Below, piece by piece: positions 54,898 to 62,429 of a stretch of 64,000 nt of DNA (position 1 is the stretch's first letter; every line of letters starts with the position of its first letter). The stretch is taken from assembly GCF_900114785.1 (NCBI RefSeq), contig NZ_FOUG01000024.1, forward strand, positions 1 to 64,000. Reading direction: 5' to 3'. The notes under the pieces were generated by a model. That model saw only the letters and a list, made by a program, of their open reading frames with translations. It did no database searches and was not told where the DNA came from. Position numbers and translations under genes: made by a program. Source of the DNA: Variovorax sp. OV329 (GTDB taxonomy: Bacteria > Pseudomonadota > Gammaproteobacteria > Burkholderiales > Burkholderiaceae_C).

Positions 54898-56571
54898 CTA
54901 TCGGCTGGCGGCGGCGGGTGCCGACGCAGGAGCAGGCGCAGGCGTAGTAGCCTGCGCCGCCTGCTGCGGATGCGGCGGAATCTGGAAGCTCCAGGTCTCG
55001 CTGATCGCCTTGCCGCCCTGGGCCAGCGCGGCGCGCAGTTCGGTGGGCTGGGCCGGGTCCTTCACCTTCACGCGCAGCGTCAGGCGCCAGCCCTGGGTCA
55101 CCGGATTGGGCTGCAGGGCGGTCTCCAGCAACTCGGCGTTGGGGCTCACGCTCACCTGCGTCTCGGGCTGGGTGCCCGGCGGCAACTTGGCGAGCGCGCC
55201 GCCCACGAAGTCGACCATCAGGGCGGTGCTGCCGTCGGTCTGGCGGATCAGGTTGGGCTGGTACTGCTCGCTCTCCGTCTGGAAGGTCTGGCGCACCCAG
55301 GCGTTCTCGGCCGCGTGCAGCGCGCGCTCGTCGGTGGTCCAGTGCATGCGGTAGGCGAACTGCATCATCTTGCCCTTGGTGGCCGGCTCGTCCGGCGTCC
55401 AGAAGGCGACGATGTTGTCGTTGGTCTCGTCCGCCGTCGGAATCTCCATCAGCGTGACCTTGCCCTTGCCCCAGTTGCCCCGCGGCTCGATCCAGGCGCT
55501 GGGCCGAAGGTCGTAGCGGTCCTTCAGGTCTTCGTAGGCGCGGAAGTCCCGCCCGCGCTGCAGCAGGCCGAAGCCGCGCGGGTTCTCCACCTGGAAGCTG
55601 CTGATGGCCACGGCGCGCGGGTTGTTCAGCGGGCGCCAGATCCACTCGCCGTTGCCGGTGAGGATGGCCAGCCCGTTCGAGTCGTGGATGGCCGGGCGGT
55701 AGTTGCGCAGGTGCTCGGGCCAGCGCTGGTTGGGCCCGTACAGGAACATGCTGGTCAGCGGCGCGATGCCCGGCATCGGCACGCTGTCGCGAAAGACGAT
55801 GTTGGCCTGCACGTCCAGCGTGGTGTCGCCACCGGGCGTGAGGATGAACTGGTAGGCCCCGGTGGCGCGCGGCGAGTCGAGCAGGGCGTAGATCACCAGC
55901 TCCTTGTCCTGCGGCGCGGGGCGGCGGATCCAGAACTCGCGAAAGCGCGGGAACTCCTCGGCGCCGGGCGGCGCCGTGTCCAGCGCCAGGCCGCGGCCCG
56001 AGAGGCCGTACACCTGGCCCTTGCCGATCACGCGGAAGTAGCTGGCGCCCAGCAGGCTCATGACCTCGTCGTACTTGCCCGCCTGGTTGATCGGGTAGAG
56101 CACGCGAAAGCCCGCATAGCCCAGCTTGCTGGTGGCCTGCTTGTCGAAGCTGAGGTTGCCGAAGTCGAAGCGCTCGGGTTCGTAGTTGAGCTCGCGCACC
56201 TCGCTGCCGACGATCTCGTTGATGCGCACCGGGGCGTTGAACTGCATGCCCTGGTGATAGAAGTTGAGGCGGAAGGGCGTGCCTTCGTCGCGCCACTCGA
56301 AGCGGTCCTGCCGGGGCTGGATCTTCATGTAGTCGGCGAACTGCATGTTGGCGAACACCGGCGGCAGGTTGCTGGCCGGTGCCTCGTAGGGCTTGGCGGC
56401 CAGCGCGCGGGCGCGCTCGGTCACGTCGTCGAGCGAGAAGGCGCGCGAAGGGGATGAGAACCACTGGGCCTGGGCGCTGAAGGGCAGAACCAACAGCAGG
56501 CCAAGCAGGGGGGCGATGAAGCGGCCGGCGCGCGATGCGTCCTGGCCAGGTCGTGCGAGGCGGAAGAGCAT
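54898..56571 (-). CDS. opgG: Periplasmic glucan biosynthesis protein OpgG/MdoG
   Basis: The 557-residue periplasmic protein has a signal peptide (ALLG-type core, cleaved near AQAQW) and the MdoG fold: [16 protein letters not shown]-type N-terminus, then [67 protein letters not shown]-like and VAFWTPDEP segments. It is needed for osmoregulated periplasmic glucan backbone processing. It ends in a Pro/Ala-rich tail. The divergent beta-glucosidase gene is adjacent. No opgH gene is seen within the window. Confidence 0.92.
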
Positions 56572-59147: not shown

Positions 59148-59840
59148 ATGCTCGGCATCGTGATCCCCGCGCACAACGAAGAAGAGTGCATTGCGGCTGC
59201 GGTGGAAGCGGCCGCTTCGGCGGCGCGGCATCCGCGATTGCAGGGGGAGGCGGTCGAGATCCTGGTGGTGCTCGACAGCTGCGATGACCTGACCGCGGTT
59301 CGCGCCTGCCAGCACGGCGCCCGCACCCTGAGCCTGCGCGGCCGCAACGTGGGCTATGCCCGCGCCGCCGGCGCCACCGCGCTGCTGGCCATTCGCGCAC
59401 GCTGGCTGGCCTTCAGCGATGCCGACTCGCGTGTTTCCGACGCGTGGCTGGCCGAGCAGATATCCCTGGACGCCGACGCGGTGTGCGGCACCGTGAGCGT
59501 GGACGACTGGTCTTCCCACGGCGATGCGGCGCCCATGCTGCGCGAGCACTTCCGCAAAACCTACCGTGATGCCGACGGGCATTCGCATGTGCATGGCGCC
59601 AACCTGGGCGTCTCCGCCTCTGCCTACCGCCGTGTCGGTGGCTTCAGGCACCTGGCTTGCTGCGAGGACCGGCACCTGGTGGATGCGCTGTCTGCCGGCG
59701 GCGCGCGCATCGCCTGGAGCGCCCGCCCCCGCGTGGTGACCAGCGCGCGGCGCGACACCCGCGCGCACGGCGGCTTCGGCAGCCACCTCGCGGACATCGC
59801 CGCGGCGCGCGTGCCGGGCTACGCCGGGGCCCGGGCCTGA
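59148..59840 (+). CDS. Glycosyltransferase family 2 protein
   Basis: The 230-residue enzyme shows the GT-A fold start IVIPAHNEEECIAAAVEAA. ILVVLDSCDD is followed by GRNVGYARAAG and the metal/nucleotide-sugar Asp-x-Asp in FSDADSRV. A C-terminal acceptor-side segment, GGFRHLACCEDRHLVDAL, ends the domain. It has no membrane helix. It is the first gene of a five-gene unit with a 1-nt gap to the next gene. GAAAGG stands before the ATG. Donor and acceptor are unknown; the neighbours suggest an amino-sugar-containing small glycoconjugate. Confidence 0.9.
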   Translation: MLGIVIPAHNEEECIAAAVEAAASAARHPRLQGEAVEILVVLDSCDDLTAVRACQHGARTLSLRGRNVGYARAAGATALLAIRARWLAFSDADSRVSDAWLAEQISLDADAVCGTVSVDDWSSHGDAAPMLREHFRKTYRDADGHSHVHGANLGVSASAYRRVGGFRHLACCEDRHLVDALSAGGARIAWSARPRVVTSARRDTRAHGGFGSHLADIAAARVPGYAGARA

Positions 59841-59841
59841 G

Positions 59842-60069
59842 ATGCTGGAGCTGCTGCAGTGGCCCGCCTTTGCAGCCTCCCTCGCGGCCGCGTGGCTGGT
59901 GGCATCCAAGTCGATCCATCGGCGCAACATCGGCTTCTGGGTGTTCCTGCTGAGCAATGCGCTGTGGATCGGCTGGGGCTGGCAGGCGAAGGCCTGGGCG
60001 CTGATCGCCCTGCAGGTGGGATTGGCGCTGTTGAACCTGCGCGGCCTGCGCAAGACGGAGGACGCGTGA
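59842..60069 (+). CDS. Small two- to three-helix membrane protein
   Basis: The 75-residue protein is mostly hydrophobic: LLQWPAFAASLAAAWLVAS, then NIGFWVFLLSNALWIGWGW, then AWALIALQVGLALLNLRGL. The spacing resembles one repeat of SWEET/PnuC-like small helix bundles (SNALWIGWGW). It begins 1 nt after the glycosyltransferase stop and overlaps the acyl-CoA dehydrogenase GTG by 4 bp, so it is an integral part of the operon. Export of the product or anchoring of the enzymes is inferred. Confidence 0.8.
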   Translation: MLELLQWPAFAASLAAAWLVASKSIHRRNIGFWVFLLSNALWIGWGWQAKAWALIALQVGLALLNLRGLRKTEDA

Positions 60070-61064
60070 ACGAAACGATGGCCCGGCTGCATGCGCTGGC
60101 CGATGCGAGCGGATCGCGGCCCGGCCTGCGGGAGCTTGCCTCCGCCGGCCTCGACCAGTTGCCACTGCCGGGCGCTGGCCAGACGCTGCTGCGCTGGCGC
60201 ATGCTCGCGGAAGTGGCTGCGCTGGACCTGTCCCTTGCCAAGCTCTACGAAGGCCACACCGATGCGATGGCGATCCTCGCCGAGCTGTCGGGGCCCTCGC
60301 CTGAAGCCGGCAGCCTGTGGGGCACCTGGTGCGCCGAACCGCCGGATGCGCGCGTGCAGATCCGCGGCGCGGGCACCGGCGCCGTGCGCCTGAACGGGCG
60401 CAAGTCATGGTGCTCGGGCGCGGCGGAAGTCAGCCACGCGCTGGTCAGCGGCTGGACAGAGGACGGCAAACCCTGGCTGGCCGCGGTCGCGCTGCGGCAG
60501 GCGGGCGTCAGGGTCACGCGCGAGGGCTGGCCCGCGGTCGGCATGGCCGCGAGCGGCAGCGTGGACGTGGTGTTCGAGGACGCCGAGGCCACGGCCGTCG
60601 GCGCGCCTGGCGACTACCTGTCGCGTCCTGGCTTCTGGCAAGGCGGTGGCGGCATTGCGGCCTGCTGGTTCGGGGGTGCAGCGGGCATCGCAAGAACCCT
60701 GCGTGCGCGCTGCGCGAACTCGTCGGACGCGCATCGGCTGGCGCACCTGGGCGCGGTCGAAGCAGCGCTGCGCCCTGCGCTGGCCCTCCTGCGCGAGACG
60801 GCGGCCTGGATCGATGCGCATCCGCAGGACAGTGCGCAGACACCGGCGCTTACGCTGCGCCTGGCTGTCGAGGCGGCCGCGCAGCAGGTGCTGCAGCACG
60901 CCTCCCGCGCGCTGGGCGCCGGGCCGCTGTGCCGCGACGAGCGCCTGGCCCGCGCGGTGGCGGACCTGCCCATCTACCTGCGCCAGAGCCATGCCGAACG
61001 CGATCTCGAAAGCCTGGGCCGCCAGCTTGCCGAGGCGAATGACAAGGAGTGGCTGCAGCCATGA
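60066..61064 (+). CDS. Acyl-CoA dehydrogenase-like flavoprotein (short)
   Basis: The 332-residue protein keeps acyl-CoA dehydrogenase landmarks: LNGRKSWCSGAAEVSHALVSG (flavin/beta-domain) and the C-terminal LPIYLRQSHAERDLESLGR. It is about 50 residues shorter than usual, mainly at the N-terminus, and the catalytic Glu is not obvious. Its substrate may be a carrier-bound or glycoconjugate acyl or amine group. The GTG at 60066 overlaps the previous stop (GTGA) and follows GGAGG; an ATG four codons in is the alternative. Confidence 0.82.
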   Translation: MNETMARLHALADASGSRPGLRELASAGLDQLPLPGAGQTLLRWRMLAEVAALDLSLAKLYEGHTDAMAILAELSGPSPEAGSLWGTWCAEPPDARVQIRGAGTGAVRLNGRKSWCSGAAEVSHALVSGWTEDGKPWLAAVALRQAGVRVTREGWPAVGMAASGSVDVVFEDAEATAVGAPGDYLSRPGFWQGGGGIAACWFGGAAGIARTLRARCANSSDAHRLAHLGAVEAALRPALALLRETAAWIDAHPQDSAQTPALTLRLAVEAAAQQVLQHASRALGAGPLCRDERLARAVADLPIYLRQSHAERDLESLGRQLAEANDKEWLQP

Positions 61065-61819
61065 CCCAGGAAGACAGATTGATTGGCCCCGGCGATGGCA
61101 CGCCCGAGGCGCAGTGGCTCGGATGGCTCTCGGATCACGCCATGCAGGACGCGGCCCTGGACGAACTCCTGTGCGGCAGCCAGCGCGTGCTGCTGGTGGC
61201 GCCGCATCCGGACGATGAGGTGCTGGCGGCCGGCGGCCTGCTGGCCATGCTCGCGGCGCACAGGCACGATCCGCTGGTGATTGCGGTCACCGACGGCACC
61301 GCCAGCCATCCGGGCTCCACCGAGTGGCCGGCCGAGCGCCTGAAGCGCGAGCGGCCACTCGAGAGCCTGGAGGCACTGACCTGCCTTGGACTGGCCGGCG
61401 TGAACCTGCGCATGCAATTGCCCGACGGCGGGCTGCAAGCGGCCGAGGAAACCCTGTCGCGCCGCCTCGAGGAGTACCTTCACAGCGGCGATATGGTGGT
61501 CACCACCTGGCGGCACGATGGTCACCCCGACCACGAGGCCACGGGCCGTGCCTGCGCACGCGCCTGCGAACGCTGCGGCGCGCGGCTGCTGGAAGCGCCG
61601 GTGTGGGCCTGGCATTGGGCGCAGGTGAACGACGAGCGCCTGCCGTGGGAGCGCGCGCGCAGGCTGCACCTCGATGCGCGCGCCCAGGCCGGCAAGCGCG
61701 ACGCCGTGCGCGCGTTCGCCAGCCAGCTCGCGCCCGATCCGTCGACCGGTGCAGGGCCCGTGCTGCGCAACAGCACGGTGGCGCGAGCCATGCGCCCCTT
61801 CGAGGTCTATTTCGTTTGA
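61061..61819 (+). CDS. PIG-L family (LmbE-like) deacetylase
   Basis: The 252-residue enzyme has the zinc motif VAPHPDDEVLAAGG (AHPDDE block) and the second ligand segment TWRHDGHPDHEATG. These N-acetylglucosaminyl deacetylases remove acetyl from amino sugars in mycothiol, bacillithiol, GPI precursors and related molecules. The ATG overlaps the stop of the acyl-CoA dehydrogenase gene (ATGA). A cytoplasmic amino-sugar made by the first gene's glycosyltransferase is a plausible substrate. Confidence 0.92.
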   Translation: MTQEDRLIGPGDGTPEAQWLGWLSDHAMQDAALDELLCGSQRVLLVAPHPDDEVLAAGGLLAMLAAHRHDPLVIAVTDGTASHPGSTEWPAERLKRERPLESLEALTCLGLAGVNLRMQLPDGGLQAAEETLSRRLEEYLHSGDMVVTTWRHDGHPDHEATGRACARACERCGARLLEAPVWAWHWAQVNDERLPWERARRLHLDARAQAGKRDAVRAFASQLAPDPSTGAGPVLRNSTVARAMRPFEVYFV

Positions 61820-61829
61820 GGGGCTTCTC

Positions 61830-62429
61830 ATGAATCGCGTCGGCTTCGAGCGCCTCTACCGCGACGCGGCGGACCCTTATGGACTGCGCACCCGCTGGTA
61901 CGAAATGCGCAAGCGCGCACTGCTGCTCGCAGCCCTGCCGGACGCGCGCTACCGCAGCGCCTTCGAGCCCGCCTGCGGCAGCGGCGAACTCACGCGCGAA
62001 CTCGCACCGCGCTGCGCGAAGCTTCTGGCCAGCGACTTCGCCAGCCACGCGGTAGACCAGGCGCGCGCGCGCGTGCGCGACTTCGCGCATGTGCGCGTCG
62101 AACAGCAAGGGGTGCCGCAGGACTGGCCGCGGCCGGCCGGCGGCTTCGACCTGATCGTGCTGGGCGAGCTGGGCTACTTTCTCGACGCGGCGCAGATGCG
62201 GGGCGTCGCGCAATGCTGCCGGGAGACGCTGGCCGTGCAGGGCACCCTGCTGGCCTGCCACTGGCTGCCGCCCTTCGAGGGGCGCACCCTTCCCACCAAG
62301 GAAGTCCACGAGATGCTGGATGCGCTGGGCCTGCCCTGCATCGCGCGCTACAGCGATGCGGACTTCGCCATGGCCGTGTGGCGCCGCGAGCCGGAGTCGG
62401 TGGCGCAGCGCGAAGGCATCCGCCCCTGA
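61830..62429 (+). CDS. NodS-like class I SAM-dependent methyltransferase
   Basis: The 199-residue protein starts FERLYRDAADPYGLRTRWYEMRKRALLLAAL, a pattern shared with NodS-type N-methyltransferases. The SAM motif FEPACGSGELTREL and a post-motif LIVLGELGYFLD follow. NodS methylates an amino sugar after deacetylation in Nod-factor synthesis; here it lies directly after a deacetylase gene, which fits the same order of steps. The ATG at 61830 is 10 nt after the deacetylase stop. Chemical detail is inferred. Confidence 0.85.
   Translation: MNRVGFERLYRDAADPYGLRTRWYEMRKRALLLAALPDARYRSAFEPACGSGELTRELAPRCAKLLASDFASHAVDQARARVRDFAHVRVEQQGVPQDWPRPAGGFDLIVLGELGYFLDAAQMRGVAQCCRETLAVQGTLLACHWLPPFEGRTLPTKEVHEMLDALGLPCIARYSDADFAMAVWRREPESVAQREGIRP

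Follow-up and report, generated by a model that had tools for sequence, protein, structure and literature searches.

Nod factors are built by GT2 transfer, de-N-acetylation and N-methylation of the freed amine, carried out by NodC, NodB and NodS, and the mycothiol and bacillithiol pathways contain a pair of a glycosyltransferase and a PIG-L enzyme (MshA-MshB and BshA-BshB). The class D flavin monooxygenases MsuC, TdsC/DszC and DnmZ/KijD3 have the acyl-CoA dehydrogenase (ACAD) fold without its catalytic glutamate and have lost the RxxFG motif. For DnmZ and KijD3, the substrates are amino sugars. Here we describe a compact locus of Variovorax sp. OV329 that resembles each of these in part. The locus lies in a 64-kb stretch of DNA (the window, whose numbering we use for coordinates) on a 75.6-kb contig of the 6.3-Mb genome, and it encodes a GT2-family glycosyltransferase (GT2), a small hydrophobic protein, a short ACAD-fold protein, a PIG-L/LmbE-family de-N-acetylase and a NodS-like methyltransferase. 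We found that the GT2, ACAD-fold, PIG-L and methyltransferase genes form a conserved cassette, with the small membrane protein only an occasional accessory. We give an even chance to the reading that the cassette, which is plasmid-borne in some cases, is an operon for the synthesis of a small amino-sugar glycoside that stays in the cytosol and serves in tolerance of stress, by which we mean osmotic stress, desiccation and stationary phase.

A reading made without database searches (the sequence-only reading) had proposed that all five genes form an undescribed set. We scanned named genomes with a nine-sequence ACAD alignment, which gave at least 430 confirmed relatives, and retained the best 80, a set biased toward close relatives of the query. 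These named loci were fetched through the ACAD protein, and a partner was counted if it shared the strand of the ACAD gene and was no more than 4.5 kb away. The genes proved to be regular neighbours. The methyltransferase gene was beside the ACAD gene in 79 of the 80 loci, PIG-L in 74 and GT2 in 62, and a single locus (L045) had none of the three. The commonest order was ACAD-PIG-L-methyltransferase-GT2, found in 33 of the 80 loci and, with a second PIG-L gene, in 20 more; the GT2-first order of the window is the less common arrangement. Relatives of the small hydrophobic protein were present in 6 of the 80 named loci and in 1 of 16 loci from the phylum sample described below (7/96), beside GT2 in L054 and L042 and just 5' of the ACAD gene in L049, L063 and L100. 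This protein is not core to the cassette, and because of its rarity we rejected the five-gene unit as such; the proposal stands for the other four genes. Over 65 loci, the tree distances of the four cassette proteins correlated with r = 0.77-0.90, with species kinship not removed.

The association was also present in a sample of 249 Pseudomonadota genomes that was not selected by sequence and included the window's own. The ACAD profile scored above 200 bits in 17 of these genomes (about 7%, own included), the next score being 69, and the methyltransferase profile reached at least 104.7 bits in exactly the same 17. Seven further genomes had methyltransferase matches of 77-101 bits without an ACAD relative. 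At the 16 loci from other genomes, the methyltransferase gene was within about 2 kb of the ACAD gene in every case, with PIG-L near in 13 and a same-strand GT2 in 11. We examined five regions from four ACAD-less genomes with weak methyltransferase matches: three held methyltransferases of about 200 amino acids without other cassette proteins, and two held Pfam-checked fusions of about 1000 amino acids that join GT2, a NodS-type methyltransferase and a polysaccharide deacetylase. The fusions adjoin further glycosyltransferases and are single-chain relatives of the cassette in logic, without an ACAD part.

Closer to the window, an ACAD-like gene was found at E<=1e-10 in 17 of 37 genomes of the genus (own included) and in 0 of 24 genomes of the same order outside the family, and the closest relatives of the window cassette carry Variovorax names (e.g. 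L034, Variovorax sp. BIN18). A tblastn search of a plasmid collection with the ACAD protein matched 52 records, some several megabases long, from Acinetobacter, Cupriavidus, Comamonas, Pandoraea and actinomycetes among others; the cassette order is kept in records of Pandoraea, Acinetobacter, Comamonas and others. Seven of eight stretches taken from this collection carried ACAD, methyltransferase and PIG-L genes, and six of those also a glycosyltransferase gene; PIG-L was about 3 kb off in the Cupriavidus stretch, and the Roseomonas stretch had no glycosyltransferase gene at the cassette. Twenty Acinetobacter records of the collection have an ACAD relative (e.g. CP119202.1), and three of these, from A. 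baumannii, are 3.6-4.1 Mb long. An annotated Acinetobacter plasmid (L023) carries all four cassette genes with a trehalose-6-phosphate synthase gene near, and thus the cassette is able to be mobile. The cassette spans genera, classes and two phyla, and is found in Pseudomonas, Acinetobacter, Streptomyces and Novosphingobium (L031). A candidate in Methylocystis (L032) was rejected as a sulfonate monooxygenase locus. We also rejected a viral origin, since viral contigs held no relative in a single-protein search that detects close relatives only, and anti-phage defence, since a PADLOC scan of four proteins gave no system-specific match, its one model match being that of the methyltransferase to mads_2 (50.9 bits).

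The sequence-only reading had taken the ACAD-fold protein for a short dehydrogenase and had doubted its catalytic glutamate. Its one Pfam match, to the middle domain PF02770, scored 25 bits against a cut-off of 33.3, and its AlphaFold2 model (pLDDT 92.6, pTM 0.91) has the ACAD fold. With this model, Foldseek ranked the putative ACAD 5gj7, DszC, TdsC and MsuC on top (E 2e-13 to 1e-12), followed by true dehydrogenases, short-chain and isobutyryl-CoA dehydrogenases among them, and the nitrososynthases DnmZ and KijD3 (E about 2e-12 to 2e-11). A profile search of the PDB placed TdsC first (2.8e-11) and cyclohexanecarboxyl-CoA dehydrogenase second (2.3e-9). Because these ranks are mixed, the fold alone is not decisive and the residues decide. 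We counted residues in an alignment of 94 cassette proteins (the window's, 13 from the plasmid collection and 80 from the named loci) to which nine classical ACADs from the window's own genome and two sulfur-type enzymes of L032, MsuC-like and SfnB-like, had been added. The doubt was well placed: none of the 94 has a glutamate at the position of either medium-chain acyl-CoA dehydrogenase (MCAD) or isovaleryl-CoA dehydrogenase (IVD), and eight of the nine classical ACADs do. The motifs for flavin adenine dinucleotide (FAD) are lost as well, with V, L, A or I in the serine column of the GSD in TEPxAGSD (93/94) and gaps at the F (92/94) and the G (89/94) of RxxFG. The K-x-x-C-S-G motif of the MsuC-like protein recurs in the cassette proteins (C in 91, S in 94 and G in 94 of 94); the SfnB-like protein has T-T-S at this place. 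Near the C terminus, 90 of the 94 have a Q-x-H (exceptions L025, L027, L031 and L033), which is reminiscent of the catalytic histidine of class D flavin monooxygenases but does not share the alignment column of the MsuC-like histidine. Because the glutamate and FAD motifs are absent and K-x-x-C-S-G is present, we read the protein as a relative of class D flavin monooxygenases, with putative use of flavin mononucleotide (FMN) and O2, and not as a dehydrogenase that oxidises an acyl group.

For the remaining enzymes, the sequence-only reading had expected the ability to glycosylate, de-N-acetylate and N-methylate, which is in line with the predicted Pfam families: the GT2, PIG-L and methyltransferase matches all exceed their Pfam cut-offs. 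Of the families tested, the cassette proteins belong only to the Pfam families GT2 and NodS, to the broad PIG-L superfamily and, by residues, to the class D monooxygenase group. None attains the cut-off of an NCBIfam equivalog. The window's PIG-L protein, the sole PF02585 match in its genome, has intact HPDDE and DGHPDH motifs. Sugar deacetylases, with diacetylchitobiose deacetylase and MshB among them, are what its profile matches in the PDB. Its best NCBIfam match is BshB1, at 51.3 bits against a cut-off of 182.5; it is likewise under the cut-offs for BshB2 (34.4 against 195.25), MshB (20 against 224.35) and Mca. The loci contain 108 PIG-L open reading frames (ORFs): 83 with HPDDE, of which 78 also have DGHxDH, 23 with HPGDE and 2 with neither. 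HPGDE marks the second, downstream PIG-L, in 22 of 22 copies extracted from named Pseudomonas loci plus L070, and DGHxDH is absent from all 23; of the other 85 ORFs, the two without HPDDE are that of L031 (HADDE) and a fragment from L070. The aspartate missing from HPGDE is the general base in MshB-type enzymes. These motifs suggest that the second PIG-L of Pseudomonas is a conserved pseudo-deacetylase, whose retention suggests a partner or regulator and further speaks for a genuine pathway. In one Rubrobacter plasmid record (L025), the eighth of the stretches from the plasmid collection, which by itself contains no PIG-L, a polysaccharide deacetylase gene precedes the ACAD gene, and an unrelated deacetylase in the PIG-L slot, even as a single case, favours a genuine deacetylation step. 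The same record has a pyridine-nucleotide-disulphide oxidoreductase gene between the methyltransferase and GT2 genes.

The top PDB profile match of the methyltransferase, 4isc (E=7e-77), is titled only "Methyltransferase"; its closest characterised solved relative is NodS (3ofj, E=6e-23), followed by phosphoethanolamine N-methyltransferases. It scored 44.5 bits with Pfam NodS, above the cut-off of 24, and 53.4 bits with NCBIfam nod_mtase_NodS, under the cut-off of 300. For GT2, the AlphaFold2 model (pLDDT 94.8) matched GT-A structures in Foldseek, and D91 and D93 (D-x-D) and E173 and D174 (E-D) are invariant across 29 alignment rows. The model suggests a minimal GT-A domain without an evident membrane helix, probably soluble. 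We rejected the arsenosugar glycosyltransferase TIGR04283 (47.3 bits, cut-off 182) and glucosyl-3-phosphoglycerate synthase as identities of this protein, the NCBIfam matches being mere leads.

We propose a pathway in which the small GT2 would move a sugar, probably an N-acetylhexosamine, onto a small acceptor, PIG-L would take off the N-acetyl group, the NodS-like enzyme would N-methylate the freed amine, and the ACAD-fold protein would oxygenate the amine or a position close to it, working with FMN as a monooxygenase and not as a dehydrogenase. In this scheme we infer the substrates, the order of steps, the N-methylation, the type of flavin, the cytosolic product and its protective role. Any specific chemistry falls below an even chance, and the broader description, a conserved stress-associated biosynthetic cassette, stands above it.

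The link to trehalose, glycogen and stress genes lies outside the window. We used labels of neighbouring genes only where Pfam or NCBIfam named the protein; score-based clustering of ORFs mixed in antisense ORFs, which left several cluster representatives without a family. Both treY and treZ are found within 9 kb of the cassette in 35 of the 44 loci from named Pseudomonas, and the annotated run is treZ, malQ, treY, a DUF2934 protein gene, glgX and the cassette, which itself has no trehalose-synthesis enzyme. The cassette is thus mostly beside compatible-solute genes in Pseudomonas. As a side observation, seven of the nine treYZ-less named Pseudomonas loci (L111, L072, L049, L063, L084, L100 and L110) have a relative of LigD, the ligase of non-homologous end joining, within 9 kb. 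Elsewhere the cassette is sometimes near otsAB, sucrose-phosphate synthase or catalase genes: it is flanked by otsA and otsB in Comamonas endophytica, lies 3' of otsB and a GH65 enzyme gene in Legionella lytica, and has catalase near in Cupriavidus basilensis and Novosphingobium. A gene for trehalose or sucrose metabolism is within 8 kb at six of the 16 phylum-sample loci, and catalase at two, and none of 40 control regions (17 kb, from 12 of the same genomes) has a stress gene. The one-sided Fisher test gave 0.0002 for 6/16 against 0/40, and 0.0009 for 5/15 against 0/40 without the self-hit L156, with 13 queries that were taken post hoc from cassette loci, L156 included. The second control set alone (20 regions, seven other genomes) likewise had no positive region.

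Published expression data bear on the same link. Table 2 of PMC5660220 (section 8) lists ACICU_02432-02435 (glycosyltransferase, S-adenosylmethionine (SAM) methyltransferase, LmbE and ACAD-related) as one operon of A. baumannii. In two colistin-dependent mutants its expression is down 31-62-fold, and the otsA/otsB genes (ACICU_00761/2) fall together with it, as does a catalase operon (ACICU_01425/6). The four product names and gene order are those of the cassette, and the A. baumannii record L028 contains the cassette; hence this is evidently the same operon, and its co-expression with otsAB and catalase is on published record. Passages of PMC13232832 suggest that the catalase operon is katE with dtpC. 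The passages of PMC6240043 and PMC9948694 name cassette genes as neighbours of blsA, and within the passages covered the A. baumannii operon appears only in this way and in the expression table; those of PMC6181384, PMC3238334, PMC13130816, PMC9657202 and PMC3758355 do not mention the cassette. Among the papers listed by full-text searches, subscription papers and preprints excepted, we found no study of the cassette and no described product; within this scope, the description of a compact, recurring and undescribed gene set holds.

The layout of the window locus and the other features with coordinates are given in Table 1. All five ORFs are on the plus strand, head to tail, with intergenic distances of 1, -4, -4 and 10 bp from GT2 to the methyltransferase; gaps, strand and coordinates agree exactly with the sequence-only reading. 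The cassette is flanked 5' by bglX (GH3), which separates it from mdoG, the nearest osmotic-stress gene noticed, and 3' by a thiamine pyrophosphate (TPP)-requiring enzyme gene (PRK08273). Neither bglX nor the TPP enzyme had a tblastn match at E<=1e-3 in loci L020-L113, and the block thus ends where it had first been placed. A nitroreductase-family protein is encoded after the TPP enzyme, past the window's end; such proteins are able to supply reduced flavin. An extracytoplasmic function (ECF)-type sigma factor gene lies about 5 kb 3' of the cassette, and a promoter and terminator scan found nothing.

Table 1. Coordinates of the cassette genes and related features (window numbering unless a locus or contig is named)
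Feature	Position	Strand	Remarks
GT2-family glycosyltransferase, small	59148..59840	+	230 aa; GT-A fold; predicted soluble; PF00535 E=2.3e-11
Hydrophobic protein, accessory	59842..60069	+	75 aa; probably membrane; reaches no Pfam/NCBIfam cut-off
Short ACAD-fold protein	60066..61064	+	332 aa; GTG start; class D flavin monooxygenase-like
PIG-L/LmbE-family de-N-acetylase	61061..61819	+	252 aa; PF02585 E=3.8e-25
NodS-like class I SAM-dependent methyltransferase	61830..62429	+	199 aa; PF05401 E=2.1e-11
MdoG-type periplasmic glucan biosynthesis gene (mdoG)	54901-56502	-	Upstream of the cassette
Nitroreductase-family protein	L185:2206-2964		Contig 64605-65363
Second (HPGDE) PIG-L	L046:12214-12870		Shared with another 21 named Pseudomonas loci; some 2 kb past cassette PIG-L
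Second (HPGDE) PIG-L	L070:7575-8363
Polysaccharide deacetylase, Rubrobacter plasmid	L025:6096-6965
GT2-NodS-polysaccharide deacetylase fusion	L180:5379-8381		Genome G131
GT2-NodS-polysaccharide deacetylase fusion	L181:5950-9003		Genome G095

Several points weigh against a stress-tolerance operon with the pathway proposed above. No product, substrate or phenotype is on record, and the shift in A. baumannii is a global change in colistin-dependent mutants and no stress test. Among the named loci, GT2 is missing or elsewhere in 18 of 80 and PIG-L in 6, and outside Pseudomonas a disaccharide gene is within 9 kb in 2 of 36 (34 are without one), with catalase in one more. The methyltransferase score gap in the phylum sample is narrow (104.7 against 101.1 bits), whereas the ACAD gap is wide. 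Foldseek places true dehydrogenases near the monooxygenases, and the C-terminal Q-x-H falls outside the alignment column of the MsuC-like histidine. Besides the post hoc choice of stress queries, only 1 of 5 cassette loci was positive in the five genomes of the first control set. When the window was tested for a stress island, the 13 queries, trehalose and catalase genes included, had no match in it or anywhere else on the contig, where the near flanks of the cassette are mdoG, bglX, the TPP enzyme and the nitroreductase. Since the window's own contig has no trehalose or catalase relative, the stress link in this lineage would hold by analogy.

If the product is a protectant, known stress genes (trehalose, catalase and hydrophilins) would gain a small-molecule partner, overlooked because its key enzyme was labelled an acyl-CoA dehydrogenase. 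About 7% of the sampled Pseudomonadota (17/249) and some Acinetobacter and actinomycete records of the plasmid collection carry this four-enzyme pathway without a described product, as a small and portable four-gene unit. A doubtful but far-reaching extension is that the product is a metabolite of stress that is widespread but unrecognised: an amino-sugar glycoside, N-methylated and flavin-oxygenated, of the hydroxylamine, nitrone or N-oxide type. It would be made alongside trehalose or sucrose and would protect drying cells or scavenge radicals in them, with a dedicated pseudo-deacetylase added in many Pseudomonas pathways.

Other products would also fit parts of the cassette. We consider it unlikely that the enzymes decorate a surface polymer or lipid (lipopolysaccharide, capsule or glycolipid), with a sugar added by GT2, deacetylated by PIG-L and then methylated. 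PIG-L and NodS enzymes do work on sugar amines, four glycosyltransferases are annotated around the cassette of Novosphingobium, and the window includes the small hydrophobic protein and lies near mdoG; yet that protein is a rare companion, the GT2 model is a minimal domain without an evident membrane helix, and no recurrent flippase, polymerase, ligase or lipid-carrier enzyme was seen among the annotated neighbours. The glycoconjugate of the sequence-only reading is likewise not supported, since we saw no gene for a flippase, polymerase or ligase that recurs beside the cassette. A true acyl-CoA dehydrogenase as the ACAD-fold protein, with an unsaturated acyl amino-sugar lipid as the product, is quite improbable. 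The full ACAD fold and the dehydrogenases among the Foldseek and PDB profile matches speak for it, but we rejected it because a glutamate is at neither known catalytic position in any of the 94 proteins and both RxxFG and GSD are lost; moreover, the cassette has no acyltransferase or ligase.

The sequence-only reading had also heard an echo of Nod-factor and mycothiol logic, which survives as a likeness of logic and fails as membership. A low-molecular-weight thiol pathway like that of mycothiol or bacillithiol, running through glycosyltransferase, PIG-L and conjugation, could draw on BshB1 being the best PIG-L match and on catalase near some cassettes. The deacetylase is nevertheless below all the curated cut-offs, the cassette lacks a cysteine ligase, its glycosyltransferase is GT2 and not GT4 as in MshA and BshA, and methylation and oxygenation do not fit; we rejected this pathway as highly improbable. 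Synthesis of a Nod-factor-like lipochitooligosaccharide is extremely unlikely, and was rejected as well: the methyltransferase does exceed the Pfam NodS cut-off, but it is far under that of the NodS equivalog, the window cassette has neither a NodA-type acyltransferase nor a second glycosyltransferase, its GT2 is far shorter than a processive membrane synthase, and the cassette is present in Pseudomonas, Acinetobacter and Streptomyces. Compared with class D flavin monooxygenases, the ACAD-fold protein lacks about 50-75 residues relative to the chains that were crystallised, its N-terminal part being shorter, its C-terminal histidine is in a different column, and no reductase gene is part of the cassette. 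Compared with the Nod-factor pathway, the cassette has PIG-L instead of NodB, a small GT2 instead of the membrane protein NodC, and an extra flavin enzyme. By analogy, we propose that the cassette works in the order of NodC, NodB and NodS, with a flavin step added.

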